DNA of 53,840 bases from a virus. Position 1 is the first letter of the stretch; the number at the start of each line of letters is the position of its first letter. A program made the position numbers and the translations under genes. A model generated the notes under the pieces. That model worked only from the letters and a program-made list of their open reading frames with translations. It searched no databases and was not told where the DNA came from. The stretch covers positions 1 to 53,840 of the IMG/VR virus record IMGVR_UViG_3300007511_000030; one strand, 5' to 3'. This document shows, piece by piece, positions 5,523-47,040 of this stretch.

Positions 5523-7343
5523 ATGGCACGACTTAGACAACAGTACCCTCAAAACTACGGTTCTACGGGAAATATCAACACCGAGTTTGAGAGTATCGTT
5601 CGATATCTCAACTCCGCAGAACTGGGTGATAAGACTGTCGCCGAGCTGCTCGACATTCTTTTTGATGAAGACGGGGTATTCGACGGCCCCATCGAGCTCC
5701 GCAAAGATTCTTCTGCGGGAATCCAGTACCGGGTTGGCACCTACACGAATTCGGAAACCGGCTGGATAACTATTGTCCCGCTGTCGGAAATCACGGGCGC
5801 AGCAGGGTCAGACGTCGGTGAAATCGGAGCGCCGATCTTCCATGGCCGCGCCGACTTCACAGCCACCGCTTCTCAGACGGATTTTGATTACGTCCACGAA
5901 TCGACCGATGAATTACTGGTCTATGTAAACGGTGTTCTAAAACGGTCAGGCTCGTCTTACGACTACACCACCAACGCAACTGGCGGAACCGGCAGCGCGG
6001 GAGTTGTTACCTTCAATACCGGCCTAACCGCCGGTAACGTGGTCACGATATTCAAGGTCCGCACCACAGCCATCACTGGCTACACCCGTACAGATGTTGT
6101 AACAACTGGATCACAGTCTGTATTCGCCTTTGTTCACGACGATGACACTCAATTAAACGTATACAAGAACGGAATACTCCAGAGATCTGGGGGATCTTAC
6201 GACTACACATCAAGCGCGACGTCAAACACAGTTACATTCAACACAGCAGTCTCATCCGGCAATACAGTCACCATCTTAACTGTCGAGAACGTATCTTCTC
6301 AGGTCGTGACCGGGCTAATGCTCCAGGCCAATTTCTGTGACACGACAACCGGCTTAATCGACTTCGGCAAAATTACGATTGACGCCAACGAAATTCCCCA
6401 GGGCAAGGTCGCCACGCTAACCACCGACCTCGGGGCCAAGGCAAAACTGACATCGAGCGCAACCACGCCCACCGCTCCGGCTACAGGGGAGTTATGGCAC
6501 GACACCTCGTCGTCCCCAAACAAGCTGAAGTTCTATGACGGAACCCAGTGGCTGACTACCAGCCCGGAATCTTCACTTCCAGTATTCGCCGCATCGAATG
6601 CGAATCACGCGCTCCATGTTAATGGTACGGGAACCGCGCTCGAATATAAATCAGTCGACTTAAGCAGCGTTGTCGCCGTCTCCACCAAAGGTGTTGCAAA
6701 CGGTGTTGCATCCCTCGACTCCAACGCACGCATCCCAGAAGCACAACTACCAACAACGCTCAGCTCTGAGTCCCTTCATGCGCACCCCAAAGGCACCACT
6801 TCGGTTGATCAGATAATCCTTGAAAATGGCGGAAGTCTTTACTCTTCCGCGCCCATCATCACCTTTACTGGTGGAAGTGGCACTGGCGCCGTCGCTACCT
6901 GCACCATCAATGGCGGTATTGTCGACACAATAACACTGACCGACGGGGGTGTCGGATACGATACTGCTCCCACAATCTCTTTCTCCGCTCCCCCAACGGG
7001 CGGAACAACCCCCATTGCCCGCGCGATCATGCTCCACAACCCAAACGCGGACAACATCGTCAAGGATGGAAGCTACAACATCAAGACGATCTTCAAGCAA
7101 AAGATCAATCTCGACGCCATCCACATCGCACTAACATCCGGCACTTGCGTAGTGCAACTTACCGTCGACGGCGCAACTGTTGGCACAACTTACTCCGCTT
7201 CTTCTGCTGGCATAACCAGCACTTTCGCGACCGCTATTCAGGTCGACTCAACCACCTCCGCAAAGAAGATCGGGTACGTGATTACTAGCGCCTCGAATCC
7301 AACAGATCTTGCCGTCACTGTTGCAACCAGCAGACTGAACTAA
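5523..7343 (+). CDS. tail fibre protein 1
   Basis: The 606-residue protein begins three bases after the nozzle gene. Residues 1-80 resemble the start of the second fibre gene at 50927 (LDILFDEDGVFDG here, LDDIFNSSGAFDS there; QYRVGTYTNSETGW and QVRIGTFSSPAAGW), so the two probably share a virion-attachment adaptor. Residues 105-260 hold two tandem beta repeats (YVNGVLKRSGSSYDYT and YKNGILQRSGGSYDYT). A segment GELWHDTSSSPNKLKFYDG (about residue 320) is typical of fibre shafts. The C-terminal third is beta-rich with a GGSGTGAVAT-type repeat. It probably contributes to receptor binding. Confidence 0.8.
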   Translation: MARLRQQYPQNYGSTGNINTEFESIVRYLNSAELGDKTVAELLDILFDEDGVFDGPIELRKDSSAGIQYRVGTYTNSETGWITIVPLSEITGAAGSDVGEIGAPIFHGRADFTATASQTDFDYVHESTDELLVYVNGVLKRSGSSYDYTTNATGGTGSAGVVTFNTGLTAGNVVTIFKVRTTAITGYTRTDVVTTGSQSVFAFVHDDDTQLNVYKNGILQRSGGSYDYTSSATSNTVTFNTAVSSGNTVTILTVENVSSQVVTGLMLQANFCDTTTGLIDFGKITIDANEIPQGKVATLTTDLGAKAKLTSSATTPTAPATGELWHDTSSSPNKLKFYDGTQWLTTSPESSLPVFAASNANHALHVNGTGTALEYKSVDLSSVVAVSTKGVANGVASLDSNARIPEAQLPTTLSSESLHAHPKGTTSVDQIILENGGSLYSSAPIITFTGGSGTGAVATCTINGGIVDTITLTDGGVGYDTAPTISFSAPPTGGTTPIARAIMLHNPNADNIVKDGSYNIKTIFKQKINLDAIHIALTSGTCVVQLTVDGATVGTTYSASSAGITSTFATAIQVDSTTSAKKIGYVITSASNPTDLAVTVATSRLN

Positions 7344-24331: not shown

Positions 24332-24620
24332 ACTTAGCAACAATCAGTGCCCAGGCTTCACGCGCCGGGGCTTCTCTTATATCTGCATCTGCTTTCAAGT
24401 CAGCAAGTTGGTTCTCCAACTCTTCTTTATGTTTGAGCAAGTGTCTGACCTTGTCCTGCGCCTTCTTCACCTGACCTTCGTTGTCTCCGAACATAAGCCA
24501 TTGCAATCTGGCGCGAACACTGCTGATTTCGATGTCAATCTTGTTCAACTGTTTCTTCTTATCCCTGTAGGCAATAACGGCTGTCTGCCATTTATCGATC
24601 AATTCTTCTGTGTTTTTCAT
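24318..24620 (-). CDS. coiled-coil protein in recombination operon, unknown function
   Basis: The 100-residue product is nearly all charged helix (ELIDKWQTAVIAYRDKKKQ, then KKAQDKVRHLLKHKEELEN) and probably forms a coiled coil. The ATG at 24620 has GGAG seven bases upstream and overlaps the exonuclease stop as ATGA; a longer frame to 24659 lies inside the exonuclease gene and is less likely. Being cotranscribed with the exonuclease, it may be a small regulatory or scaffolding partner, which is inference. Confidence 0.7.
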   Translation of the reverse strand: MKNTEELIDKWQTAVIAYRDKKKQLNKIDIEISSVRARLQWLMFGDNEGQVKKAQDKVRHLLKHKEELENQLADLKADADIREAPAREAWALIVAKCGLR

Positions 24621-25435
24621 TCGAGCTCCAAGGGGTAGTAAGCGTTGTACTGTCCGCAAGTTGCTTCAGCAGGTTCATCGTGAAGTAAGCACCACCATTT
24701 TTTAAAATGGTTTGGCTTGTCCACGGGCACTGCATTTTCGCAGGTAACGCAGGTCTTAGGAATATCCGCCTCAGACGGATTCCAGCATACCTGCTGCCTG
24801 AAACACATTCGACATCTCCAATCGTCTGACGATCTCGAGATCTTCCTTGCCTGGTTGCGCATCACGACTTCGATGCGATGCTGCATATTCGAAAAAACGA
24901 ATGGGTCAAAGTCGATGTACTCCGCATGGTACTCGGACGTGTTCTTGTTATATGCGATGAAAAACGATCGCTCGAAATTTCCCAGCCCCATCATCAACTG
25001 GCACTGAGCCACGTATTTGGGGTGACTCTTTGCGACCCCATGCTTCTTAAACTTCTTCCAATTAGAGTCATTCATGCTTTTGACTTCTAACAAAAGCAGC
25101 TCTTCATCAATGACGACTCGACCATCCATGTGAGCACGAACGTGGCCACCGTGATCGGTTAATTCATATTGCCGTCCAGTGATGTTGTCTTTCTCAAAAA
25201 CATCCAGACCTGCTGTCTTCATGTCGGCAACGACAATGTCTTCAATCTTGTGCCCAAGCAAAAAGATTCGCTTAAGTTTCGGGCTTATCGGATCTTCTGG
25301 GAAGCCTCGCAACGAGTACGCCAGATATGCCTCACACTCATTTCCAATAATCGAAGCGCCAATATATTGGCGAGGGGCTGACTCCTGATGTCGATCCCAG
25401 GCATTGAAATTTTCGAGAATGTCTTTGATCAACAT
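24617..25435 (-). CDS. Cas4/RecB-like PD-(D/E)XK exonuclease with Fe-S cysteines
   Basis: The 272-residue product has the RecB-type nuclease core: GHKIED at 61-66, Asp104 (AHMDGR), Glu117 and Lys119 (LEVKSM), and a YVAQCQLMMG helix at 141-150. Cys34 together with Cys208, Cys211 and Cys217 has the spacing C, CxxC, x5, C of the iron-sulphur cluster in Cas4 and AddB nucleases. A second cysteine set (Cys229, 232, 249, 260) at the C-terminus could bind zinc. It would resect DNA ends for the SSB-like and Sak4-like partners in the same operon. A strong terminator directly precedes its ATG and no ribosome site is visible, so expression must be unusual. Confidence 0.8.
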   Translation of the reverse strand: MLIKDILENFNAWDRHQESAPRQYIGASIIGNECEAYLAYSLRGFPEDPISPKLKRIFLLGHKIEDIVVADMKTAGLDVFEKDNITGRQYELTDHGGHVRAHMDGRVVIDEELLLLEVKSMNDSNWKKFKKHGVAKSHPKYVAQCQLMMGLGNFERSFFIAYNKNTSEYHAEYIDFDPFVFSNMQHRIEVVMRNQARKISRSSDDWRCRMCFRQQVCWNPSEADIPKTCVTCENAVPVDKPNHFKKWWCLLHDEPAEATCGQYNAYYPLELE

Positions 25436-25464
25436 AAAAAAAGGGGGGCGGTTTCCCGCCCCCC
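25436..25464 (-). terminator. strong intrinsic terminator abutting the exonuclease start
   Basis: Read leftward, a 9-bp G/C stem (GGGGGGCGG, CCGCCCCCC) with a four-base loop is followed by seven T, and the next three bases are the ATG of the exonuclease. It separates the SSB gene from the exonuclease within one operon. It may attenuate distal genes and leaves no room for a normal Shine-Dalgarno sequence. Confidence 0.85.
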
Positions 25465-25469
25465 AGTGG

Positions 25470-25979
25470 TCAGGCGAAGTTCAACTCGTCGTTAAAGAGA
25501 TGCGAGTCATCATCGGGTGAGGAGGAGGCACCCGAAGATGTGGGAGGCACCGCACCATTCGCCTGATAGTATGTCTTCACCTCGCGCTTAGGCCCATACA
25601 CATTGCCTGTTCGGGGATCTTTGCGTTCCTTGCTCATCCCGACCGACACACCAACACGCAATCCAGACAGTGTCGATATATCTCCGGGCTTATTGGGGTT
25701 GTCGTGACCCCCGAACTCGAGGATGGCCTTCAGTTTTTCCCGGCCAATTTTTTGAGCGATATCGCTTTCATTCTGGATGTTCAGCCAGTCGGTGATGGTG
25801 CCAGATCCACCTTCATCTCGGAACTCAACCTTCAGTTGTCGCCCCCGACCGCTCTTGGTCTTCACGATTTCGGCGTTAATCACCGAACAGTTGTAGTTGC
25901 CGGGTTCGAGGATCGCACTACCACCACGAACATCAACATTACCCAAATCTAAATCCGCAAAGCCTGTCCACTCACTCAT
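25470..25979 (-). CDS. single-stranded DNA-binding protein, DUF669-like
   Basis: The 169-residue product has a beta-rich core (GNYNCSVINAEIVKTKSGRG, LKVEFRDEGGSGTITDWLN, QKIGREKLKAILEFGG), a pattern of phage proteins grouped as DUF669 that act as SSBs. A flexible Ser/Pro stretch leads to an acidic tail (DDDSHLFNDELNF), as in SSBs that recruit partners. It overlaps the Sak4-like gene by ATGA. It would coat single strands made by the exonuclease and support annealing. The identification is by pattern and operon, not by search. Confidence 0.75.
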   Translation of the reverse strand: MSEWTGFADLDLGNVDVRGGSAILEPGNYNCSVINAEIVKTKSGRGRQLKVEFRDEGGSGTITDWLNIQNESDIAQKIGREKLKAILEFGGHDNPNKPGDISTLSGLRVGVSVGMSKERKDPRTGNVYGPKREVKTYYQANGAVPPTSSGASSSPDDDSHLFNDELNFA

Positions 25980-26794
25980 GATTTCTTCTCCTGTTTCTGT
26001 TTCTGCGCCTCAGCTTTGGCGCGTTTTGCCGTCTCAACCCACTTCCCATATTCGTTGTCGTCCATAGACATACGATCGAACAGGGATATGATGTTGTCGC
26101 ACCGCTCAACTGGCCGAAGCCGATTGCGCGGATCGCGAACTTTTCCGTGCCACCCCTTTACTTCTTCAGTGATGATGAAGCGCTCGATATGCACATGCGG
26201 TGGGTCGCCCGTCGTTCGGCGAATCCCGCACAACACATGATCGAATAGCGCTGGCACCTGCTTTGCCACCTTCTTTGATTTGAGCAGTGGCCAGTAATGC
26301 GTCTGGTCATTGTCGTCTTGCTCTTCAGCAGCAAGCGCAGTGATATAAATGTGCATGGGCAGATCACGCACATACTTCATGGCTCCAATAATTTGGGTAC
26401 TGTGCGCCCCGTACTTCTCGAAACCGTTGCTGCCAAATTCTTCTTCGGCCCACGCCATACATCGATCAGACAGTTCGGTAAGACTATCAATACAGAGCCA
26501 CTTGTACTTCTGTTTTTTGAAGTCGGGGGTATTCATCATCTTGATAATCCCCTTGAATGAATAGATCCCCTGCTCAGGATCGTTGACCCCGTCCCACGAC
26601 GAGAAGTCCAGGTAGTCGATGCCACAGTCCTCGATCGACTTAAGCCCCGCTTCACCACTAATGATGAACCCCGGCCCCAATGACTCTTGAAGGTATCGGC
26701 ATTGATAAGTCTTGCCGAACCCATGATGCGCCACTAACAATGTCTTGCTTGCTGACGCCACAGAACCGTCATTCGCTTTCTTCGGTTTGAACAT
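25976..26794 (-). CDS. Sak4-like RecA-fold ATPase (single-strand annealing)
   Basis: The 272-residue product has a Walker A motif AHHGFGKT (Lys28) and a Walker B-like KWLCIDSLTE near residue 103, with a RecA-fold spacing. An N-terminal KTLLVAHHGFGKTYQ start, an SGEAGLKSI turn and a KKVAKQVPALFDHVL segment are typical of the phage AAA_24/Sak4 group. Sak4 proteins promote single-strand annealing with a phage SSB, which is the neighbouring gene here. GGGAGGG four bases before the ATG is a strong ribosome site. The C-terminus ends in a Lys/Gln-rich tail. Confidence 0.8.
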   Translation of the reverse strand: MFKPKKANDGSVASASKTLLVAHHGFGKTYQCRYLQESLGPGFIISGEAGLKSIEDCGIDYLDFSSWDGVNDPEQGIYSFKGIIKMMNTPDFKKQKYKWLCIDSLTELSDRCMAWAEEEFGSNGFEKYGAHSTQIIGAMKYVRDLPMHIYITALAAEEQDDNDQTHYWPLLKSKKVAKQVPALFDHVLCGIRRTTGDPPHVHIERFIITEEVKGWHGKVRDPRNRLRPVERCDNIISLFDRMSMDDNEYGKWVETAKRAKAEAQKQKQEKKS

Positions 26795-27212
26795 TTTTCC
26801 CTCCCACTTCTTGGACGGACACTTTCGCCCCGCCCCGTGTTATTGAAAGAGCATCAGTGATGCCCTCCTTCTCTTCTTCATCGAGCCTCTCGTACGCCTT
26901 TCTCGATATCGAATATGTAGTTGTCACCCACTTCGGGGGCACAGGGCCGTATCGTTGTTTGAGTAACTCGGTATCCCAAGTCCATCTGGCCCCACGTTTA
27001 CAACGCACGAGGTATCCGTCAAGATCCATTGACCAATCGCCAATGTCCCTCGGGAATTCCTCTTTTAGTTCTTCGTCAATCTCGCTGAGGCGCTCTTTCG
27101 CAATCTTGATTCCGCGCTCAATATTCAGACGCTCGCGACATAACTGTGCCGCAGGGCTGAGGGGTTTCTCTTCCCCCCCTCCTGGCTCAAGATAGTCCCA
27201 GTCTTTCTCCAT
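26769..27212 (-). CDS. first gene of recombination operon, charged helical protein
   Basis: The start at ATG 27212 has AGGGGGAGC just upstream; a longer frame to 27296 would cross the operator and is rejected. The 147-residue product has a coiled-coil segment (CRERLNIERGIKIAKERLS) and a C-terminal domain with RWTWDTELLKQRYGPVP and TTYSISRKAYERLDE. I recall similar proteins beside phage exonuclease or Sak-type genes, of unproven role. It overlaps the Sak4-like gene by 26 bases. The gene is the first after the divergent promoter region. Confidence 0.7.
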   Translation of the reverse strand: MEKDWDYLEPGGGEEKPLSPAAQLCRERLNIERGIKIAKERLSEIDEELKEEFPRDIGDWSMDLDGYLVRCKRGARWTWDTELLKQRYGPVPPKWVTTTYSISRKAYERLDEEEKEGITDALSITRGGAKVSVQEVGGKNVQTEESE

Positions 27213-27235
27213 GATGCTCCCCCTGATGCTCTGCG

Positions 27236-27255
27236 TCACACCTGACCGGGTGTGA
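27236..27255. promoter_or_regulatory. palindromic operator between the divergent operons
   Basis: TCACACC and GGTGTGA are inverted with a six-base spacer (TGACCG). It lies 24 bases from the leftward start and 44 bases from the rightward regulator start. A related palindrome occurs at 44848-44862, upstream of the second leftward operon. It may bind the small regulator encoded next to it, or a host or integration-module regulator. A TATATGAT-like -10 may lie leftward near 27275-27282, without a good -35. Confidence 0.5.
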
Positions 27256-27298
27256 TTTGGATGCGAGTAGTGTATCATATACCGAACGGAGCGCAAGC

Positions 27299-27541
27299 AT
27301 GAAACGACAAAAATTCAACGTGGCCAGATTAGTCAAAGACATGGGGGGGGCAAGCGCCGTGGCGAATCTGCTCGGCACCCCCCGGACCGCCCCGTACCGT
27401 TGGATAAGGCATCGTTATGTCTCGAGTCGAATGCTGGAAGCTCTGAAGTGGCATCACCCAGACTTAAAAATCGACGAATACTTTGAGGACTACGACAACG
27501 ATGACAACGATGACAACGAGCACAACCCAAACCTGCACTAA
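27299..27541 (+). CDS. small Cro/HTH-like regulator
   Basis: The 80-residue product starts at ATG 27299 (GGAGCG upstream). VARLVKDMGGASAVANLLGTPRTAPYRWIRHRY looks like a helix-turn-helix of the Cro or YdaS kind, in which the protein reads DNA through a helix near RTAPYRW. The C-terminus is an acidic Asp/Asn-rich tail (DNDDNDDNEHNPN) coming from a short ACGATGACA repeat that overlaps the next gene. Its place between divergent operons, next to a palindrome, suggests it regulates both. This role is inferred. Confidence 0.65.
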   Translation: MKRQKFNVARLVKDMGGASAVANLLGTPRTAPYRWIRHRYVSSRMLEALKWHHPDLKIDEYFEDYDNDDNDDNEHNPNLH

Positions 27542-29411
27542 CACACTCGACTCAGCGCTTGAATATCTTGAACGGGGATGGTCAATCATCCCCGTTCGCG
27601 TTTCTGGGCAGGGGAAGAAGATCCCTCACATCAAATGGAAGGAGTTTCAGACAAGACAAGCAACCCCGGAAGAAGTCGAATCCTGGTTTACCCAGTGGCC
27701 AGATACAGGCATCGCCCTTGTGACAGGCGCGATATCCGGTATCTATATAGTTGATTGCGACACTATCGAGGCACAACGAGAAGCTGATCGAATCGGCCTG
27801 CAAACCTTCATCAAGACCCGCACCCAACGGGGCAAGGAAGGCTGTCACCTGTACTTCGAGCATCCGGGCGACGGCAAGTTGCGGGGTAACAAGGTAGGCG
27901 TCAACGCTGACGGGGTCTCTTGGCCCAAGATAGACGGACTCGATTTCCGGGGCGACGGTGGCTATGCCCTGCTCCCCCCATCCAAGGGGTATGAGTGGGA
28001 CATTCCAGTGGGCATTAGCCCAGACGATATGGCTATCTGGACAGACCCCCAGATCACGGCCAGCGTGGTGGACATCAACACGCGGGAAGAATTCGACCTA
28101 TCCAGCCTCGATCTGTCGTCAGTTTCAGCTAGGAACCACATCCCAGAGTGGGACAAGACATATCAGTTTGTCAGGGATAAGTTCCCCACCACCCTGAAGA
28201 TCCCTTCGGGCTGCGGTAACGGTCGCAATGATCGTGTGATGAGACACATCAGCGACTCAATTATTCGGGGCTTTTGGGGCGACGAGCTGCGCGCGAAGGG
28301 CCGGTCATTCATGCGGGAGTTCTTCGAAGAGCCTCTCCCCGAACCAGAATTCCTCGCGACAGTCGCCTCGATGGAAGCCGCTGAGCGCCGTAATCACCCC
28401 GAGCGCCTAGAGAAACACGAGAAGCCTGCACAACCCTCGTCTGACATCGTGTTACTCACGGAGAACGATGCTGATCGCCTGATCGGGGAAGCCTCGAGCC
28501 GTGCCTATATCGTTGAGCCATGGCTCTGGCCCGAATCAATCACCCAAATCCACGGCTATTCCGGGTCGGGAAAGTCGATGTTCCTACAACACATCTTATA
28601 TGCCGCCGCCACTGGCCAAGACCGCTTCGGCCCCTACCTCCTTGGCAGACGGGCTCGAGTTCTATATCTCGATTTTGAAATGGGGCGAGGCACAATCGGA
28701 TCCCGGCTCAAAACACTGGAAGGAATGTATGGGCCAAGTGAGGGGTACTACCAGGTCTGGGCGCCCTTCTCAGACGAGGACATGGACTTGAAAAAACCGG
28801 GGGGTTTGAGCCGCCTGGATACGGTCATCAAAGCAGCCAACCCTGAGATTGTCGTTATTGATACCAATCGCTCTGCCTTCGTGGGCCTGGAAGAGAACAG
28901 CGCTGAGGGCTGGTCGTACGTCAACAGAGTGCTTCTCAGACTGCGGGACATGGGGCTGGCAGTTATCTCGGTACACCACAGCAACAAGCCGGGTGAGTCA
29001 GGCCTTGGTCGGGAAGCCGGATCGACCGGCCAACTTGCGATTCTCGACACCCAGATCAGGGTCGCGCAGGTCTATGAAGACGAGACAACAGCCAAGCAAA
29101 ATGCGGGGATCTGGGATGCGTCGTACAGCACGCCTGTATTCCCCGCTATGAGCCGTTCGCTGTCTGAGGACTTCGATCTACAGATGGTGATGGAACTGCG
29201 TTACAGGAAGGTACGGGAGTGGACAGAGCACCATGAGTGGGGCCAATGGGTTGGGTTTGGGGTGAACCATCAGGACGAAAGCCGGATGGTGGTGGGTAGC
29301 CGAAGCCCCCGACAGAAGGCTCAGGCGTTGGCGAGTCAGGGCACACCCTTGAAAGAGATCGCAAAGACCCTTCATAAACCGCTCAAAGCAGTTAAGGAGT
29401 GGGTCGGATGA
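27501..29411 (+). CDS. primase-polymerase / RepA-like helicase fusion
   Basis: The 636-residue product (start ATG 27501, GAGGA upstream; 27510 or TTG 27483 also possible) has an N-terminal bifunctional primase-polymerase domain. Visible signs are GIYIVDCD (acids at 85 and 87) and GCHLYF (His116), then a GGDGGYALLPPS-type loop. The C-terminal half is a RecA/RepA-like ATPase: Walker A GYSGSGKS (Lys358), RVLYLDFEMG, EIVVIDTNRSAF, and SVHHSNKPG. Together they would prime and unwind at the phage origin. It starts inside the regulator gene, so the two are coupled. No family A or B DNA polymerase was seen nearby. Confidence 0.85.
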   Translation: MTTMTTSTTQTCTNTLDSALEYLERGWSIIPVRVSGQGKKIPHIKWKEFQTRQATPEEVESWFTQWPDTGIALVTGAISGIYIVDCDTIEAQREADRIGLQTFIKTRTQRGKEGCHLYFEHPGDGKLRGNKVGVNADGVSWPKIDGLDFRGDGGYALLPPSKGYEWDIPVGISPDDMAIWTDPQITASVVDINTREEFDLSSLDLSSVSARNHIPEWDKTYQFVRDKFPTTLKIPSGCGNGRNDRVMRHISDSIIRGFWGDELRAKGRSFMREFFEEPLPEPEFLATVASMEAAERRNHPERLEKHEKPAQPSSDIVLLTENDADRLIGEASSRAYIVEPWLWPESITQIHGYSGSGKSMFLQHILYAAATGQDRFGPYLLGRRARVLYLDFEMGRGTIGSRLKTLEGMYGPSEGYYQVWAPFSDEDMDLKKPGGLSRLDTVIKAANPEIVVIDTNRSAFVGLEENSAEGWSYVNRVLLRLRDMGLAVISVHHSNKPGESGLGREAGSTGQLAILDTQIRVAQVYEDETTAKQNAGIWDASYSTPVFPAMSRSLSEDFDLQMVMELRYRKVREWTEHHEWGQWVGFGVNHQDESRMVVGSRSPRQKAQALASQGTPLKEIAKTLHKPLKAVKEWVG

Positions 29412-33760: not shown

Positions 33761-34834
33761 TTACCTTACAACTTTTATGTGACCACAACTTTCGGGTGCA
33801 TCTAGTAGTACGTCATCGAATGTCACCCACTTCAATCCATTGATCGCACTCGTTAAATTCTTTGGCGCCAGATGTGAATACCGCATCACCATCGCTAAAG
33901 TCTTGTGACCAAGCAGGTCGGCAACCTTCCTAATCCCCGTGTCGTTAATCACTAGATGTGAGGCGAAGGTATGTCGACAATCGTTTGGCACAAAGTCTTC
34001 GATCCCGCACTCATCCATCAGCGCAGAGAACCTGTCCTGAAACGTCTTGTCTGACCAACGCTCACCCCGCGCGTTCGGAAATACTAATCCATCTCGCGCT
34101 TTCTCATCAACAAACTTCATCACTTTCTCATGCACCGGAACCTGCCGACGCCTGAGCATCGAGCCCCGGCCCTTCCGAGTGCCGTACTCAAAAAACCACT
34201 GGCCGTCTTTCTCGAGAACCTTCCGATAATCCAGCCCCAACACCTCATTCAGACGGCCCCCCGTGTAAATCAGGGCAGTCAGCACTGGTCTGATGTCATC
34301 CTTGGCCGTTCTTAGCACCAGTTCGATCTCGAACAACTCCAGATATCGAACCCGCTGATCGTCGACCGTGGGCTTGCGCACCTTCGGAACCACCTTAATC
34401 ATCTCCAGTTCCCTGGCGTGATTGAACACACTGGACATCGCGCTCAGATCTCGTCTGATACTGCCGGGCTTGTTGCCGTTGTGTCTCTTCTTAACGTATG
34501 CAGCTACGTCAGTCGGCTTAATCTCCACCACTGGCGTATCTTTCCAGTAGTGCTTTTGTAGATTAACCATCCTTGCCTGAGTACCAGACACCCCTTCTGG
34601 CCGATCAAGGTAAGCATCAGCGCACTCAGAGAATGTCGTCTGATGCTCTGCTCCCTTGCCCGTGCTTAACAGAAGGCGACGCTCGATATCCAGACACTTG
34701 ATCCGCGCTTCTGCTATATCGCTTGGACGCAGACCAAGTTTCTTTCGATGGCGCACACCGTTGACATAGCCATCAGTACACAACCAACCGTCACGCTCTG
34801 TTACGCGAAGTCCGCTTCTTCTTGCCTTTGCCAT
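33761..34834 (-). CDS. int: tyrosine recombinase integrase
   Basis: The 357-residue product starts at ATG 34834 with GAAGGAGGG before it; the longer frame to 34909 lacks a site. An N-terminal SAM-like/core-binding domain (KHYWKDTPVVEIKPTDVAAYV-type) is followed by the catalytic domain: Arg194 in TGGRLNE, Arg287 and His288 in CRHTFAS, LGHKT, and Tyr319 in MRYSHL. It overlaps the LuxR-type gene by 44 bases, so its translation is coupled to that regulator. The adjacent tRNA-derived core at 33670-33710 is the expected attP. The enzyme would integrate and, with a directionality factor not seen here, excise the phage. Confidence 0.92.
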   Translation of the reverse strand: MAKARRSGLRVTERDGWLCTDGYVNGVRHRKKLGLRPSDIAEARIKCLDIERRLLLSTGKGAEHQTTFSECADAYLDRPEGVSGTQARMVNLQKHYWKDTPVVEIKPTDVAAYVKKRHNGNKPGSIRRDLSAMSSVFNHARELEMIKVVPKVRKPTVDDQRVRYLELFEIELVLRTAKDDIRPVLTALIYTGGRLNEVLGLDYRKVLEKDGQWFFEYGTRKGRGSMLRRRQVPVHEKVMKFVDEKARDGLVFPNARGERWSDKTFQDRFSALMDECGIEDFVPNDCRHTFASHLVINDTGIRKVADLLGHKTLAMVMRYSHLAPKNLTSAINGLKWVTFDDVLLDAPESCGHIKVVR

Positions 34835-40053: not shown

Positions 40054-40598
40054 TGCTTTTCCTCTTTCGTGTTGACAATGATGGAGAGCGCGCGCCCTCC
40101 GGTTTTCTCAAGATCGCCTTCTTCCAATGCGCCTTTCAGGAAGGCTCGAAGATGATCCGTGTGCTTTCCCCCATCGATCCAGATATCGAGATCCCGAAAC
40201 GAGTTGTCGATTGATTGGAGTGCGTAATCCACAAAGTCTTCTAGCAGTTCGGGATCAACTTCCAGACGACCGTTGCGCGAGTTATCTTCGATGTCATCCA
40301 ACAACGTCTGCTCGAGGGTGTATCCGTACGTTGGTTTCGTTTTGGTCGTGCTCGTTGTGGTGTGCTTTGACCAGTCGTACGGCTCGTTGTCGTACTCGTA
40401 GTCACTGGCCCGTCCGAACATATCCCTGCTTCCATAGTCCCAATACGAAGGGCCACTTCCACGAGACGGTGTGTCTCTCCAATATGTGTCGCTCGAATAA
40501 CTTGTTTTCTTTGGCTTCACCTTCGGCTTGTCCTCGAACAGATCGTCAAGCGCCTTTGATGTGATCGCATCCACTTGCTTGTTGTCGCCTTTACTCAT
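40050..40598 (-). CDS. phage protein, disordered N-terminus, unknown function
   Basis: The 182-residue product starts with a charged stretch having ALDDLFEDK, then a long Ser/Tyr/Thr-rich low-complexity region (residues 30-90) and a helical C-terminus (LLDDIEDNSRNGRLEVDPELLEDFVDYALQ). AGGAGAAAAAACC precedes the ATG. Its neighbours are the AAA+ and VWA genes. Function unknown. Confidence 0.6.
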   Translation of the reverse strand: MSKGDNKQVDAITSKALDDLFEDKPKVKPKKTSYSSDTYWRDTPSRGSGPSYWDYGSRDMFGRASDYEYDNEPYDWSKHTTTSTTKTKPTYGYTLEQTLLDDIEDNSRNGRLEVDPELLEDFVDYALQSIDNSFRDLDIWIDGGKHTDHLRAFLKGALEEGDLEKTGGRALSIIVNTKEEKQ

Positions 40599-40788
40599 GG
40601 TTTTTTCTCCTGCTTGATTGCGTTTCCACTTCTCGACATATCTCCTGTACTTTCTTGATGTCTACGTGCCGGATCTTCCGCGCCCTTACTACCTTGGCCA
40701 CTTGAATCCAGAATTCCCATGGTCGCTTGGGCCAGTGCTTCATCCACTCACTGTCGACCGTGCCTACTGATTTTTTCTTCGGCCCCAT
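40591..40788 (-). CDS. small basic protein, unknown function
   Basis: The 65-residue product is basic and helical with many Trp (MKHWPKRPWEFWIQVAKVV) and overlaps both neighbours: its ATG shares bases with the CobT-like stop (TAATG) and its end overlaps the gene at 40050. It may be a small partner of the VWA protein. Confidence 0.6.
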   Translation of the reverse strand: MGPKKKSVGTVDSEWMKHWPKRPWEFWIQVAKVVRARKIRHVDIKKVQEICREVETQSSRRKNHE

Positions 40789-42659
40789 TACGCAGCTCGC
40801 AATGCGTGCTTCGCCTTCATGAGATCCGAGTTGTCTGGCTTGTACCGATCGTTGATGAGCAACTTGCCCAACTCATCCATCGTTGCTTTTGGCAAGTCAT
40901 TCAAGTTATCGATCACCTGCCACCGTGGATAGAACTGCTGAACAGCGTCGCTCATGATCCCGATGCCCACGCAATCGGCCTTCTTGGAAACCATCTCGAT
41001 GACATCTCGAAGATGTTGATCGAGATGCCCCTGACCAAACGATGTGTTGCAGGCCGGGTATCCGTCTGACAACACGATCAGGATCTTTCTCTTGCTTGGC
41101 CTCACCCGCAGCCGTGCCCACGCATTGAGCACCGCTTCACCGTCTGAGTTGCAACCAGCAACACAGTAGTAGATGCGACCCATCGCGCCACGAGCATCGA
41201 ACAGTCGCTCATCGAACTCCTTGAACACATACATATCGAGAGCGCCATACCGCGAAGATTTCGGTCTGGCACCACCCCGCGCAAACTTTCTGGCGGGATC
41301 GTTATGGACGAATCCGGTCGAGTTGTTGAAGCCCAACACTTCATACTCGACTGGCGTTCTTTCCAGACACTCGGCCAATGCGATTGCGACTTGGGTTGCC
41401 AGATACGCGGGCTGACCACACATAGAGCCGGATAGATCGATGAGAATTTCGATACTGGTATCGAAGTCGTCAGTTTCTTCCCGTGCCTTGAACACATTAG
41501 GCTCGCCCTTGTAGGCAGCCGGGAGTCGGCGCGAGTCGAGGTTCCCTTCCAGACGACCAAAGTCCCAGTTGCGTTCCATCTTTGCGGTGATGGCCCGCTC
41601 GAGTTTCCGGCGCATGGTGTTCACCTTGCCCACCATCTCCCTCTTAATCTCTTCGTAGTGTTCAGCGTTTTTGCTCGTGATCTGCGAGATTGTTGCTCGG
41701 TTGTTATTAGCGCCTCCCGTGTACTTGGCTTTCTTGTCGTGACGTGTGTGCCACTTGTCACTGGCCGTGCTCTCCGGTCGATACGCACGCTCCCGATCCC
41801 CTTCGTCAATCTTGTCCCGCCATGTGCTCTCAAGCGCATCAGCGGGTTCGATCTCTAAGGGGTTTTGATCCCCACTGGACTCGTGTGCTTTGCCATATGC
41901 TGATCGAGCCTTGCGAACTTCCGTGGTTCCGGTTTCCCCCTCGCCATCTGCCTCGTACGGCTCATCAATGATCGGGTCGCCACCTTCTTCTTCCTGCTTC
42001 TCACGGATGTCTGAGTCGATACGTCGCGCCAGCTCAACGACATCAGCCGAATTCCGACACGCCTTGATCGCCCTCGCCCATGCCTCGGACTCCTTCTGCA
42101 ATTTCTCTGGCAACAGATCAATGCACTTCTGATTGGTGTCGGTGTCGTAACCCAACAGTTTTCGACCCTGCCATGTCAGCGCAATCGTCATGATTTTCTG
42201 CCTGTCTGACACAGCGTCTGACTCGGAGTGGCGATTGAGGAACTCGGAATTAACGGCCTCCGTAGTCGCAGTCAGATTGCGTAACGACCCCGGATATTCG
42301 TCAATGATTCGATCCTCAATACGCACATCCTCGATGGCGTTTATCAGGCGGGGAAGAATCTTGTTGCCGTCCTTTGCACATTGCTTATTGGTTTGGGCCA
42401 ACAGGGGCATATCGCTATGCCGAACGTGACCGGCCTCGTGGTCGATGTAACCCCTCGCCACAAGCACCTGCTCAGACGTCAACTGCTTCCCGCTTGGCAA
42501 CGACGGCAGAACAATGGTGTTCCCATTGGTTCCCGCTTGGTCGCCACTGAACACCACGTTAATGTCGAACTTCCGACCGAACGTGCGCCCCGTGCCATGT
42601 GCTTCGATCGTGAAGTTCTCGGTGGACATCGAGTGATCCGTAAGTGAGTAACCACTCAT
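40788..42659 (-). CDS. CobT-like VWA protein with HEAGH zincin motif
   Basis: The 623-residue product starts at ATG 42659 with AAGGAGGTCGCA upstream. Residues 74-78 are HEAGH (IDHEAGHVRH), a zinc-site motif. A charged linker (Glu/Gly/Asp-rich) leads to a von Willebrand A domain whose metal-binding motif is DLSGSM (408-413), followed by GFNNSTGF and a C-terminal KADCVGIGIM helix. This order is the CobT/VWA-with-MoxR pattern known in cobaltochelatase and other AAA+ pairs. The MoxR/CobS-like gene lies just upstream. The pair probably remodels a protein target; the target is unknown. Confidence 0.8.
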   Translation of the reverse strand: MSGYSLTDHSMSTENFTIEAHGTGRTFGRKFDINVVFSGDQAGTNGNTIVLPSLPSGKQLTSEQVLVARGYIDHEAGHVRHSDMPLLAQTNKQCAKDGNKILPRLINAIEDVRIEDRIIDEYPGSLRNLTATTEAVNSEFLNRHSESDAVSDRQKIMTIALTWQGRKLLGYDTDTNQKCIDLLPEKLQKESEAWARAIKACRNSADVVELARRIDSDIREKQEEEGGDPIIDEPYEADGEGETGTTEVRKARSAYGKAHESSGDQNPLEIEPADALESTWRDKIDEGDRERAYRPESTASDKWHTRHDKKAKYTGGANNNRATISQITSKNAEHYEEIKREMVGKVNTMRRKLERAITAKMERNWDFGRLEGNLDSRRLPAAYKGEPNVFKAREETDDFDTSIEILIDLSGSMCGQPAYLATQVAIALAECLERTPVEYEVLGFNNSTGFVHNDPARKFARGGARPKSSRYGALDMYVFKEFDERLFDARGAMGRIYYCVAGCNSDGEAVLNAWARLRVRPSKRKILIVLSDGYPACNTSFGQGHLDQHLRDVIEMVSKKADCVGIGIMSDAVQQFYPRWQVIDNLNDLPKATMDELGKLLINDRYKPDNSDLMKAKHALRAA

Positions 42660-42790
42660 CGTTTGCGACCTCCTTCTCTCCATTTGTGTTTGGGCACAAA
42701 CTGCGCTTTGCCCTTACTCACTAAGGCGTACGCAGCCTTGTCATTCATGCGTACGATCTTTCCCGTTGATGTTTGTTTGACGCATTTCAT
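42656..42790 (-). CDS. 44-residue micro-protein between CobS- and CobT-like genes
   Basis: An ATG that follows the ATPase stop without a gap (TAAATG) opens MKCVKQTSTGKIVRMNDK; the frame ends in TGA overlapping the CobT-like start. The product is basic (VPKHKWREGGRKR end) and includes DKAAYALVSKGKAQFV. I recall similar micro-proteins from phages. The AAGGAGG of the VWA gene lies inside it. It is too short for usual ORF calls, but its place with exact overlaps on both sides supports it. Confidence 0.65.
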   Translation of the reverse strand: MKCVKQTSTGKIVRMNDKAAYALVSKGKAQFVPKHKWREGGRKR

Positions 42791-44809
42791 TTATGCAGAT
42801 TCCTCGGTTGCGACCGTCCATGCTCGGTTGTGGATACCCTTGAGCACAGCGCGGTCTTGTGGTGATGCTCGGTTCAATATGCAGACCTCGAACGCCTCGC
42901 TACTGGCCTTGTTCTCATCCGGCAACAGCGCAAGGAAGTTCGTCAACGTCTGGCCCCAACTGATAACGCCTCGTGGCGACAACGGTTGCAGGATCTCTGC
43001 ATTAACGAACGCTTCCCGGTGTTCCTTGACGTACCGCATGATGGCGTCAGCAAACCGTTCCGGCAGTGCGGGTGATCTCGCCATAAGCAACTTCTTTTCC
43101 TCGCCCGGCTTGAGATACTCGACGTTCATCCAACGAGTGAACCTGTCGAGAAACGCTTGGGACTGTGGCCGTGCGCCCTGATATAGACCGAAGTCATCTC
43201 CCTGCCCCACCGTGTTGGCGTTAGCCACCAGACGGTGCATGGGGTGAGCATTGACATAACGACCACCGTCCTCGGTGATGAGCAGTCCATTGCCCTCAAG
43301 CATCCTGTTGAACACATACGAAACCTCAGCCCTGATGCGATCGACCTCATCGCAGACCAAGACATAAGGCCCATTGAGCGCCGTGGGCAACACACCATCC
43401 ACAAACTTGGAAGTCGTGACTCCACCGTCGTTCGTGAGAACGTCACGGCCCATCAGATCCATGCGGGTGATCTCGGAGTCGAAGTTGATGCGAATCATCG
43501 GCCAGTTCATACGAGCCAGCGTCTGCTCGATCAGTGTCGTCTTGCCTGTCCCGGTGTGACCAACGAGATACGACCGCTCGCCAGACACCAAGGCTTGCAA
43601 GAGATTGAGGAGTGGCATCGCCTGGAAGATGTAATCCGGGTCGATAGCCGGGACATGGGGGTGTGGAGAATCCCACTTGAACACAGGGATCTCGAACTTG
43701 AAGGCGGGCTTGCCCCGCTTGATTTTGAAAACGTCTGACGCCAGTTTCTGTTCGATCTCGCCCTCGGGGATATCCCCACTGGCCTCAACCTGTGCGGGCA
43801 TCGTCGGTGCTGACGACATCGAGCCCATCTTCTTACGCAGACTGTCTGCTTCCTGCTTTGCGACCTGCCCATCCCGAATCTTGGCAATCAGGTCGTCTGC
43901 GTCCTTGACACCGCCAGACGTGGCGTTTGACAGCATTGTGTCGAGCACCGCTTTGAAATCCGCTTTCACGGAAATCGTGGGCACTGTACCGGAGTCGGAC
44001 TCGCCGTCTGATTCGTCGCCATCATCGCCAATCAGCGTTTTCGTGGCGACTTCCGCAATGCTCGTGGCCAAATCATCGCCAACTGCTGTTGCGAATTCAA
44101 ACTCGTCGTCGCTAAGAGCGCGGGCCTGAATCGACGCTCTCAACGCATCAATGCGACCCGTCTGATCGGTTGTGTCGGCAGAGTTTTCGAGGTGCGTAAG
44201 GAATTTGTCGGACAGACTTTCTGCCGATTCAAAGTCTCCTTCGTTATCACGAACAAATACATCGTGCGCATTGATCAACTGATCTAGCGACGCAGAGTAG
44301 GTATCTGGATTCATAGAATCTCCTGTTGTGGTGGGTGTGGTGGTTGATGGTGGGAAGTGTTTTTCTATACGCTCTTGCAAGTCGTCTGGCTCACGGGTCG
44401 CTCCCAAAATGACCCCGGTACGTGATGCTTTGCTTTTGACTGGGCACTCGTCGTTCCAGATCAGACGCATACGCCCCATGCCCGTATCGTAGAAAACATC
44501 CTCGGCTTCGAAACCGCCGAGGATGCCCATCCAAATCGCTAACGAGATCTCACGAAGGGTGTGGACTGGCAAGCAGTCACGAAATCCGACCAGTGAATCG
44601 CGCGGATTGATTTGGTTCTCTCCATTGCCGATGTATGAGGAAAGCGCGGTAGCGCTAGTCCACGCATCTTCCAGATAGTCGAGAGCCTCGTGCTCGAGCC
44701 CACTAAGAGCGGTGTTAAAGATTTCTCGATGGAGGCGTCGTTCGTCCTCACTCAGCATTTGCTCCGTGAAAACACGACGAATGGTTTGCTGTAAAGCAGT
44801 TTCGGTCAT
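42791..44809 (-). CDS. MoxR/CobS-like AAA+ ATPase
   Basis: The 672-residue product starts at ATG 44809 (AGGGAGCG upstream), not 44845. An N-terminal region of about 390 residues, rich in acids and probably a partner-binding domain, precedes the AAA+ module: Walker A GHTGTGKT (417-424), Walker B LVCDEVDR, a RMLEGNGLLITEDGG loop, Sensor-1 LVANANT, and an arginine-finger-like FLDRFTRW. This is the MoxR/CobS form that works with a VWA protein, encoded just downstream. It is the first gene of the second leftward operon and has an operator-like palindrome 39 bases upstream. Confidence 0.85.
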   Translation of the reverse strand: MTETALQQTIRRVFTEQMLSEDERRLHREIFNTALSGLEHEALDYLEDAWTSATALSSYIGNGENQINPRDSLVGFRDCLPVHTLREISLAIWMGILGGFEAEDVFYDTGMGRMRLIWNDECPVKSKASRTGVILGATREPDDLQERIEKHFPPSTTTPTTTGDSMNPDTYSASLDQLINAHDVFVRDNEGDFESAESLSDKFLTHLENSADTTDQTGRIDALRASIQARALSDDEFEFATAVGDDLATSIAEVATKTLIGDDGDESDGESDSGTVPTISVKADFKAVLDTMLSNATSGGVKDADDLIAKIRDGQVAKQEADSLRKKMGSMSSAPTMPAQVEASGDIPEGEIEQKLASDVFKIKRGKPAFKFEIPVFKWDSPHPHVPAIDPDYIFQAMPLLNLLQALVSGERSYLVGHTGTGKTTLIEQTLARMNWPMIRINFDSEITRMDLMGRDVLTNDGGVTTSKFVDGVLPTALNGPYVLVCDEVDRIRAEVSYVFNRMLEGNGLLITEDGGRYVNAHPMHRLVANANTVGQGDDFGLYQGARPQSQAFLDRFTRWMNVEYLKPGEEKKLLMARSPALPERFADAIMRYVKEHREAFVNAEILQPLSPRGVISWGQTLTNFLALLPDENKASSEAFEVCILNRASPQDRAVLKGIHNRAWTVATEESA

Positions 44810-44847
44810 ATACGCTCCCTTTGTATATGCTTGGATGCACCCCAATT

Positions 44848-44862
44848 ACACCCGTTAGGTGT
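44848..44862. promoter_or_regulatory. operator palindrome upstream of the MoxR-like operon
   Basis: ACACC and GGTGT inverted with a five-base spacer (CGTTA). It resembles the palindrome at 27236-27255. Leftward, TTGCTT and TATATC (18-base gap) upstream could be a promoter whose start would fall in the palindrome, as in repressor sites. The match is visual and the spacing differs by one base. Confidence 0.5.
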
Positions 44863-44937
44863 CTGATATACCATACTAGGCATCTCTAAAGCAACTTTCG
44901 GTGCTCTTAGGGTGTATGGTGGATACAAGCAGAGGCC

Positions 44938-44957
44938 GACCCCGCCGAAGCGGGGCC
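44938..44957 (-). terminator. G/C hairpin terminator candidate
   Basis: An 8-bp stem with a four-base loop (TTCG read leftward) lies 22 bases past the stop of the gene at 44979. A T-poor tail makes it weak. It separates the two leftward units. Confidence 0.45.
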
Positions 44958-44978
44958 GACGTGCCCCGGAGAATCCGG

Positions 44979-45176
44979 TCAACGTGTTGCGATTGTCTCG
45001 ATGGCCTCGAGAATGTCGTCGATCTCGCAGTCCACGACATCAACCTCGAGCATCTCGAGAAAGTGAAGCCACATGGTTCGGTCAATGTCCGACTCATAGG
45101 CCAGCGTGTTGCGATGCGCGACGTCGTCTGACAGATCGACTTCCTCGCCTTCGCAGATGATTTTGAGGTCGCTCAT
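44979..45176 (-). CDS. small acidic protein, paralogue of next gene's C-terminus
   Basis: The 65-residue product begins MSDLKIICEGEEVDLS. Its C-terminal 27 residues (LEMLEVDVVDCEIDDILEA) align with the C-terminus of the gene upstream (LETIEVDAVDWDADDILEH), suggesting a duplicated module. The start overlaps the previous gene by four bases. Function unknown. Confidence 0.6.
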   Translation of the reverse strand: MSDLKIICEGEEVDLSDDVAHRNTLAYESDIDRTMWLHFLEMLEVDVVDCEIDDILEAIETIATR

Positions 45177-45517
45177 GGTGTTGCGGTTGCCCCCATGTGT
45201 TCGAGAATGTCGTCTGCGTCCCAGTCCACGGCATCAACCTCGATCGTCTCGAGATCAGACATAACGTGGTCGCCGTTGCGAATTTCGTAATCAATCGAAG
45301 CGCAAGCCTCGATCAACTTTTCCTCTCGCATTTGCACCCCATCGGGAAACATGAACCATCCGTCGTCCGACATGGGGCAGACGTCGCCAAAGGAGGCCAC
45401 GTATGCCAGGTAAAACTCGACGTAATGGCCTTCAATCGTCGAGCCGTCAGACAACGTAGCGTCACCCTCGTGGCGCCAGTCATTAACGGTGGGGTCTACA
45501 TCAAGGATCATTTTCAT
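45173..45517 (-). CDS. small acidic protein with structured leader, unknown function
   Basis: The 114-residue product starts at ATG 45517 (GGAGAACG upstream). An N-terminal beta domain has ILDVDPTVNDWRHEGDATL and a central FMFPDGVQMREEKL; the C-terminus is the DDILEHMG module shared with the next gene. A leader of about 90 bases with two hairpins (related to the leader at 46595-46652) precedes it. Function unknown. Confidence 0.65.
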   Translation of the reverse strand: MKMILDVDPTVNDWRHEGDATLSDGSTIEGHYVEFYLAYVASFGDVCPMSDDGWFMFPDGVQMREEKLIEACASIDYEIRNGDHVMSDLETIEVDAVDWDADDILEHMGATATP

Positions 45518-45540
45518 AAACGTTCTCCGTAAAAATCCCA

Positions 45541-45606
45541 TAGGAAATTCAAAGTGGAACCCCTTTGGTTCCGGCCAGTTGTCCTACTCTTCCTTTGGAA
45601 GAACCC
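45541..45606 (-). ncRNA. candidate structured leader RNA, copy A
   Basis: Read leftward: hairpin CTTCC-AAA-GGAAG, a linker with TAGG and TGGC, hairpin GGAACC/GGTTCC with loop AAAGG, and CCTATGGG, whose TCCTA can pair with TAGGA in the linker (pseudoknot). Similar elements stand before the gene at 46175. It lies upstream of the 45173 gene. No known riboswitch is recognised. Confidence 0.5.
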
Positions 45607-45635
45607 GCACAAAGAGAAAAGTCCCGCCCGCACAA

Positions 45636-45643
45636 GGGGACGA
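45636..45643 (+). promoter_or_regulatory. GGGACGA motif, copy 5 (before small terminase candidate)
   Basis: GGGGACGA is flanked by AAGG and CCCTT, giving a small hairpin with loop GACGA, 36 bases before the terminase-related gene. The intergenic placement and strand match the other copies. Confidence 0.4.
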
Positions 45644-45678
45644 CCCTTGCGCCACGTTTGGCGTATAAGACAGTTGAT

Positions 45679-46059
45679 ATGACTGCCGAAGTTCGTAAAC
45701 CGATCACTGACGCGGTCGCACTGAGCCCACGCCAAATCGCGCGCATACGTGGCCAAATAGCGACCCATGTGAGGGATCTGATGCCACAAGCCGTCGAAGC
45801 AGCTCGCGGAGAGCGTACGTGGAGCAACCAACAAGTGACGTTATTCCGTACGTTGCTTGCGAAGGTCGTACCAGACCTGTCGCAATCACACAGCACGGTG
45901 GACATCACGACGCGTACGATCAACGAACTGACGCGCGAGGAGTTAGAAGCCATCGCGTCGGGCAACGATGCCCTTGATGGCGAGATTGTTGACACAATAG
46001 AGCGCGTCGACGATGACGATGCCCTTGTTAGGGGAGCGCGTAAGACAAAGAAACAATGA
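45679..46059 (+). CDS. small terminase subunit candidate
   Basis: The 126-residue product (ATG at 45679; a longer frame from 45565 would cover the leader) has an N-terminal helical part (SPRQIARIRGQIATHVRDLM) and a C-terminal region with KVVPDLSQSHSTVDITTRTINELTREELEAIASG, a pattern I recall from small terminase-like proteins (kvlPDL...eltreEL). It stands upstream of the large terminase with two genes between. A short acidic tail follows. Small subunits recognise the packaging site, but the call is moderate. Confidence 0.55.
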   Translation: MTAEVRKPITDAVALSPRQIARIRGQIATHVRDLMPQAVEAARGERTWSNQQVTLFRTLLAKVVPDLSQSHSTVDITTRTINELTREELEAIASGNDALDGEIVDTIERVDDDDALVRGARKTKKQ

Positions 46060-46130
46060 CTTACGTGTCGTTGTGACCAAATTTGTGTCGTTATCATGTT
46101 CAGACGGGCCTATGCGTAGGAAAAAAAGCC

Positions 46131-46160
46131 AAAAAAAAACGCGCGCCCCCGAAGGGGCGC
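46131..46160 (-). terminator. strong terminator for the 46175 gene
   Basis: Leftward, a 7-bp stem GCGCCCC/GGGGCGC with a four-base loop is followed by a nine-T run (46139-46131) and then a second T-run. It closes the single-gene unit at 46175-46579. Confidence 0.85.
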
Positions 46161-46174
46161 ACGAATGTCAGCGG

Positions 46175-46579
46175 TTACGACTTGTGCGAGGTGAACGCGG
46201 CCACGATCTGCGTGAGCTCCGCGACCTGCGCCTGCAACGCTGCGATCTCGGCAGCCTTGCTCGTGCGCGCCTCACCCTTGGCGGGGCGATCCACGCCCAG
46301 GCTCGCGAGCGTCGCGACCGGTGCGAGATCCTGCGCGCCGGGCACGCCCTCGACCTTGCCCATCGCGGCTTTTGACGAGCCGAAGTCGTGCAGGCACGCG
46401 CCCGCCTTGTCGACCGTCGCCGCACGCGGGCCCGTGACCGTGATCGGCCACAACTTGCCCGACGCGCTCACGCAAAGCGTGCCGTTGAACCAACGCACGT
46501 TGCGCTTGCCCACGGTCGTCGTTTGCCCGTTGCGGAACGTGATCTCAGGGCTGATGGTGTCCAAAGTGTGTGTGCTCAT
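46175..46579 (-). CDS. GC-rich moron-like gene, unknown function
   Basis: The 134-residue product has a polar N-terminal beta domain (ITFRNGQTTTVGKRNVRWFNG, VSASGKLWPITVTGP), then an Ala/Asp-rich C-terminal helix (SKAAEIAALQAQVAELTQIVAAF) that likely forms a coiled coil. It opposes the flanking packaging genes, has its own leader (GGAGACTCAC ribosome site, structured RNA copy B) and terminator, and is visibly richer in G+C. These are signs of a moron, a lysogenic- or fitness-type insertion. Function unknown. Confidence 0.65.
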   Translation of the reverse strand: MSTHTLDTISPEITFRNGQTTTVGKRNVRWFNGTLCVSASGKLWPITVTGPRAATVDKAGACLHDFGSSKAAMGKVEGVPGAQDLAPVATLASLGVDRPAKGEARTSKAAEIAALQAQVAELTQIVAAFTSHKS

Positions 46580-46594
46580 GTGAGTCTCCGTTGT

Positions 46595-46652
46595 GAGCCA
46601 TCGGGGAATCCTCCGGTCTCAGCCACCTGACCTATGTTTCCTTTGGAAACCG
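46595..46652 (-). ncRNA. candidate structured leader RNA, copy B
   Basis: Read leftward: hairpin GTTTCC-AAA-GGAAAC, then TAGG, GGTC...GACC hairpin around TGGC, and CCCCGATGG, ending 15 bases before the 46175 gene start. It shares the order and several bases (TTCCAAAGGAA, TAGG, TGGC, ATGG, CGGAGA) with copy A at 45541. Function unknown. Confidence 0.5.
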
Positions 46653-46794
46653 CGCCGCGCCTGCGCGCGTGTGAGGCCGGAGGGGGGGCGGGGCATCCCC
46701 GCGTCCGCCTGCGCACGCGCGAATGATGGCGACTCCCTACCCCCACGACTAATCGCACCAAATTTCAAACCCTGTCTGATAAAGGAGACAAATC

Positions 46795-47040
46795 ATGGAA
46801 GAAACGATTGAAGACGATCTGGTAAAGAACCACGAAAAAGACCGACTAACTTCTAATATTTCTTTAGAAGATTTCGCGAAAGCGATGAGTCAGCTTGATC
46901 TCGACTCTGTAGCGCCGGAGAAGCGGCAAGCCGCAGTTCTTGACCACCTGATGCGGATCATGCAGAACGAGATCCACGACCGTCACGTAGCCAAGGAGAT
47001 CAAATATTCCCGCATCCTCAACGCCATGGAAGGCTCGTGA
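46795..47040 (+). CDS. small helical protein before large terminase
   Basis: The 81-residue product starts at an ATG with AAAGGAGACAAATC and overlaps the terminase start (GTG) by four bases. It is highly charged and helical (DFAKAMSQLDLDSVAPEKRQAAV). The 46653-46794 stretch before it is very GC-rich with no clear gene. It could be a true small terminase or a TerL accessory; position favours a packaging role. Confidence 0.65.
   Translation: MEETIEDDLVKNHEKDRLTSNISLEDFAKAMSQLDLDSVAPEKRQAAVLDHLMRIMQNEIHDRHVAKEIKYSRILNAMEGS

Follow-up and report, generated by a model that had tools for sequence, protein, structure and literature searches.

The conserved unit in the DNA described here, as judged from sequence comparison, comprises a CobS-like AAA+ ATPase, a CobT-like predicted metallopeptidase with a von Willebrand factor A (VWA) domain and a small gene that we call d65. 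All three lie on the minus strand of a 53,840-base IMG/VR virus record (IMGVR_UViG_3300007511_000030), the whole of which is referred to as the window: the ATPase of 672 amino acids at 42791-44809, the CobT-like protein of 623 amino acids at 40788-42659, with an N-terminal HExxH domain and a C-terminal VWA domain, and d65, of 65 amino acids, at 40591-40788. Pairs of a CobS-like ATPase and a CobT-like VWA protein are known and widespread in tailed viruses. We put at roughly 55% the probability that this pair is an ATP-driven machine of the early or replication region, one that acts as a metallopeptidase or otherwise processes or remodels proteins.

Both halves of the CobT-like protein fall within the CobT domain families. 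PF06213 (CobT N-terminal) covers residues 20-274 (E = 4.6e-15; 56.3 bits, gathering threshold 26.1) and PF11775 (CobT_C/VWA) covers residues 389-602 (E = 5.9e-28; 98.4 bits, gathering threshold 21), and the solved CobT structure (PDB 9uka) is matched at E = 2.4e-34. The N-terminal half contains HEAGH at residues 74-78 (42426-42440, minus strand) and, further downstream, E110 and E115 (42315-42332, minus strand), candidates for the third metal ligand. The VWA half contains a metal ion-dependent adhesion site (MIDAS), DLSGS, at residues 408-412 (41424-41438, minus strand). The only invariant N-terminal-half columns are H74, E75, H78, E110, E115 and G124 in an alignment of 41 diverse rows, composed of the window, 31 sequences from earlier alignment-based and genome scans (including scans with a DHE pattern) and nine chosen by the VWA half; D408, S410, G411 and S412 are invariant in the same rows, a sample partly selected by the MIDAS motif itself. 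As the patterns of the early alignment-based viral scan and of the genome scan contained DHE, their HExxH counts were biased and were not used to assess conservation. A second sample was instead collected with the VWA half alone, using the MIDAS stretch as the pattern, which kept 80 of the 108 loci found, 76 of these having at least 250 residues upstream. In this sample, blind to HExxH, the motif occurs within the first 200 residues of 71 of the 74 assessable viral proteins; the five of the 76 without it are two cut by a contig end, one with HEAGGH and two with HEVAR. Seven of nine named phages also have it (CRP-810, T5S1, RHEph10, SSU5, ICP2, P-SSM2, and BS162P1). Both sequence hallmarks of a zincin, a conserved HExxH and a downstream acidic ligand, are therefore present. 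The initial annotation had read the pair as a MoxR/CobS ATPase with a VWA-zincin partner and had staked this in advance on conservation of the MIDAS and HExxH residues in homologues; they are conserved, and that reading stands.

It is at this site that the phage proteins part from bona fide CobT. The N-terminal domains are homologous, with 40 of the 41 viral or genomic N-terminal domains matching PF06213 and a profile of them matching 9uka at E = 8.9e-9. However, where the phage proteins have HExxH and EDxxxE, bona fide CobT has GDSMALR (in 9uka, within the aligned stretch GDSMALRQARH) and EQARVE. HExxH is missing from all seven plasmid-borne CobT or CobT-like proteins whose N-terminus could be assessed, an eighth (Cupriavidus) being unassessable. 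A tree built on the VWA half groups all eight CobT rows in a single clade (support 100/100), flanked by HExxH proteins when the tree is rooted at its midpoint, the only rooting used; CobT may have lost the motif, or the phages may have gained it. No statement that viral CobT retains a site missing from CobT was found in a search of the open-licence literature.

In structure prediction the VWA half finds closer matches than the HExxH half. The full-length model has a mean predicted local distance difference test (pLDDT) score of 85.3 and a predicted template modeling (pTM) score of 0.81, and its VWA domain matches the MIDAS domains of NorD and midasin at Z of about 18 to 21. Modeled alone, the N-terminal domain reaches a pLDDT of 93.7 and a pTM of 0.90. 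Compared with the PDB by VIA-align, its best match has a Z of 5.9, and 25 of the 50 listed matches (Z 3.7 to 5.7) are proteins such as selecase, abylysin, SprT, thermolysin and M1 enzymes, which, partly from their titles, we take to be zinc metallopeptidases. CobT of 9uka was not among the matches from these fold searches. Those BFVD matches at E of 0.001 or below that carry a name are CobT, cobalamin or VWA phage proteins, together with one uncharacterized phage protein. A match of the N-terminal profile to the anti-CRISPR AcrIIA26 (PDB 9zq6_B, E = 0.0023), centered on NxxEDxxIE and without the HExxH, was set aside as probably due to chance.

The partner ATPase has intact Walker motifs, with Walker A (GHTGTGKT) at residues 417-424 (43538-43561, minus strand) and a CDEVD box at residue 486, inside a significant Pfam AAA_5 domain (PF07728, residues 415-557, E = 3.3e-15). 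It matches solved CobS (PDB 9ujv) at E = 3.5e-52, yet is about 340 residues longer. Among its first 390 residues the sole Pfam match lying wholly inside is SBDS_N, below cut-off at E = 0.11. Part of this N-terminal region appears to be exchangeable. A near-identical contig (L020, the contig of locus L003) differs from the window by 54 mismatches and four gaps over an aligned 6.2 kb, and within the ATPase gene all differences are confined to residues 39-139 (44393-44695, minus strand), where it carries another allele; this looks like an allele exchange between close relatives. An in-frame internal ATG at residue 166 (44312-44314, minus strand), accompanied by AGGAG at 44320-44324, is a possible start of a short form. 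Internal ATGs with a Shine-Dalgarno match of at least four bases, 205-285 residues before Walker A, are present in 20 of 43 representatives, and 22 such sites were observed where 12.8 were expected under synonymous shuffling, a number reached in 0 of 300 shuffles, with the region boundaries picked after the data had been viewed and the rows being related. McrB is a precedent for an internally started short form without the targeting domain. An exchangeable ATPase N-terminal domain, possibly with a separate start, is undescribed in the literature examined.

The third gene, d65, follows cobT at a junction as tight as the others of the module, the cobT stop sharing bases with the d65 ATG (TAATG). 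A profile seeded from the window d65 matches the reading frame immediately downstream of cobT in 89 of 133 loci; after removal of repeats, 64 of the 96 distinct contigs and 40 of the 67 clusters have such a match. Among 29,271 stop-to-stop frames from 197 sources, matches better than 1e-4 occur only after cobT; in loci L065 and L068 they lie 1.9 and 1.2 kb downstream of it. Roseobacter phage CRP-810 (L001, OR671924.1), one of the two nearest annotated relatives together with phage T5S1-k141_653015, has a homologue directly after cobT at 5629-5811, unannotated in its record. Across 34 rows W15 alone is invariant, while F26, W27 and V30 come close. The window d65 has no match in Pfam or PADLOC, PHROG 3439 is weakly matched by two of the 34 members, and the profile finds nothing in the PDB better than E = 0.39. 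The linkage of this gene to cobT, seen so far in sequence comparisons, is likewise a feature undescribed in the literature examined.

The initial annotation had instead drawn a three-gene unit of the ATPase, a 44-residue micro-protein (42656-42790, minus strand) and the VWA protein, at 42656-44809, a range outside which the VWA protein falls. The three reading frames are indeed joined end to start, by TAAATG and ATGA, as verified in the sequence; the ATPase ATG at 44809 is preceded by GGGAG and the cobT ATG at 42659 by AAGGAGG. The unit as drawn is nonetheless wrong, d65 belonging to it in place of the micro-protein. The latter had been thought constant in position. Among the screened loci, however, cobS and cobT flank it in L003 and L005 alone, both from near-identical contigs whose cobT is 100% identical to that of the window, which excludes it as a member of the unit. 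The next relative, L004 (CobT 67% identical), lacks it, and in CRP-810 cobS and cobT are separated by 12 bases. We regard it as a real coding gene that wanders, because a 62.8%-identical homologue sits about 2 kb upstream of cobS in locus L050; 29 of the 50 base differences between the two fall at third codon positions. PHROG 829 is matched only at E = 0.086, and the two of 12 records that match this family do so through the micro-protein, both being near-identical contigs. The claim that the ATPase is first in its operon was partly right, as two small open reading frames on the same strand (44979-45176 and 45173-45541) lie upstream. These are both acidic with similar C-terminal ends, and an 85-nt stretch common to them at 78.8% identity looks like a tandem duplication. 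A search of 44600-46900 for sigma-70-like promoters found none, with 1.0 expected.

The surroundings of the module suggest when it may act. In the eight annotated phages considered (BS162P1 was left out), the pair precedes the gene for PolIII alpha in RHEph10, nickie, BUCTxx99, SSU5 and PhiR41_1, precedes polymerase or primase-helicase genes in T5S1 and ICP2, and in P-SSM2 lies between gp46 and the gp45 clamp gene. In CRP-810 cobS, cobT and d65 are followed by endonuclease V, a LuxR-type regulator and an integrase; the window has, on the strand of the module, a sigma/regulator-like gene at 34794 and an integrase at 33764. Elsewhere in the window (24620-29408) there is a cluster of genes for a Cas4-type exonuclease, a single-stranded DNA-binding-like protein, a Sak4-like annealing protein and a Prim-Pol/helicase. 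A scan with a library of defense systems gave no meaningful match. A role in host takeover or DNA-related remodelling, as the initial annotation proposed, would fit the early or replication neighborhood of the module in the phages examined.

In the mechanism we favor, the AAA+ ring would bind its target through the variable N-terminal domain, and the CobT-like protein would dock on the ring via its VWA domain, by analogy with the MoxR-VWA partners CobST, NorQD and midasin. The predicted zinc site could then cut or process the protein opened by the ring. The likely targets would be early ones, host or phage proteins of DNA metabolism or defense and not corrin rings, because in those phages that we examined the module adjoins genes for replication and recombination. 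The d65 protein might be an adaptor, and translation from the internal start could yield a further, short form of the ATPase without the targeting domain, as in McrB. The two proteins are encoded together: in 59 of the 68 viral loci that have both, no more than 150 nt separate the gene for the AAA ATPase from that for the MIDAS-bearing VWA protein.

Several known systems resemble the pair. NorQD and midasin likewise combine an AAA+ ATPase with a MIDAS-bearing VWA partner or domain. CobS and CobT (9ujv, 9uka) share its two domain families, the cobS-cobT order and the homologous CobT N-terminal domain. The cyanophage P-SSM2 has the same pair, with a "peptidase" near cobS that carries HEVGH and EDVRIE, but in reverse order, with three genes in between and a CobS of 364 residues. 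AAA-VWA modules of plasmids and Desulfobacterota (L018 and most of L089-L113) have an AAA ATPase upstream of an HExxH VWA protein; they differ by having another gene or genes, or a gap, between the two, and no d65 match was found in any of them. The example in L018 (2251-6701) is on a conjugative plasmid, along with DUF3150 and RecT/exonuclease genes. An AAA-vWA pair of haloviruses is described in PMC7911831, where its function is called unclear.

A number of observations weigh against the machine that we propose. Among the PDB matches listed for the N-terminal domain no zinc peptidase reaches a Z of 8, and Foldseek finds no PDB match at E = 0.001, so the support of the predicted model for a zincin fold is weak. 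The motif itself is not universal: nickie and BUCTxx99 have the VWA protein but no intact HExxH, L184 and L186 have HEVAR in its place, and L043, L050 and L160 have HEAGGH, a one-residue insertion within the motif. The first two phages and L184/L186 imply that proteolysis is not always needed. Moreover, d65 is absent after cobT in 32 of the 96 distinct contigs, placement on the replication side rests on a handful of annotated phages with no systematic count, and the signal for two ATPase forms is modest and suggestive only. The loss of HExxH in some homologues would suit an unlikely alternative, that the pair is a pure MoxR-VWA remodelling chaperone whose HExxH binds metal for structure or substrate recognition and cuts nothing. 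The VWA matches to NorD and midasin fit this too, and known MoxR-VWA systems are chaperones, as PMC7159879 also states. However, a structural site would not need the catalytic-type glutamate, which is invariant alongside both histidines in the 41 rows.

A somewhat less probable proposal is that the pair processes structural proteins or assists virion assembly. For group 2.2 jumbo phages PMC7824862 describes a MoxR ATPase next to a vWA protein whose N-terminal part is a metallopeptidase domain, and, taking Acidianus two-tailed virus as an analogue, proposes such a virion function for them; we liken the two by description alone, CobS and CobT being unnamed in that paper. The module of the window, however, lies on the other strand from the terminase and portal genes, and in the phages examined the pair keeps company with ligase, primase, PolIII alpha, clamp or helicase genes, outside the structural block. 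The most improbable of the alternatives is that these are auxiliary metabolic genes, the viral CobST using the CobN of the host to raise cobalamin synthesis. This vitamin B12 role is proposed in PMC8651126, where the peptidase label of viral CobT is called a mistake, and is repeated in PMC9503304. Membership of both proteins in the CobS and CobT families, with matches to the solved structures, agrees with it. Both nevertheless score far below the equivalog cut-offs of the cobaltochelatase subunits (187 against 558.55 bits for the ATPase with TIGR01650; 154.6 against 759.05 bits for the CobT-like protein with TIGR01651). No CobN (PF02514) was found in the window, a record that may be a fragment, or in nine phages and one phage-like plasmid. 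The phage proteins retain catalytic-type residues that CobT is missing, and bona fide CobT forms its separate clade. HEVAH is also carried by the CobT-like protein of Escherichia phage PhiR41_1, with E. coli K-12 MG1655 as its recorded host, which is not known to synthesize cobalamin de novo. The sequence evidence points away from the vitamin B12 label of viral cobS and cobT.

Taking the protein-processing machine further, we tentatively suggest, as a possibility that we think doubtful in its full extent, that viral "cobST" may encode an AAA+-coupled zinc protease that is widespread among phages, plasmid-borne elements and phage-plasmids and has an ATPase targeting domain exchanged between close relatives, two ATPase forms made from one gene and d65 as a dedicated small third subunit, and that CobT may be a derived branch in which the protease site was lost. 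Should these viral proteins prove to be proteases or remodelling factors, the B12 or auxiliary metabolic label would be wrong for many viruses. The pair, found repeatedly in cyanophages, roseophages and enterobacterial phage-plasmids, would then become a testable host-takeover or replication factor, and a source of the CobT N-terminal domain would be suggested.

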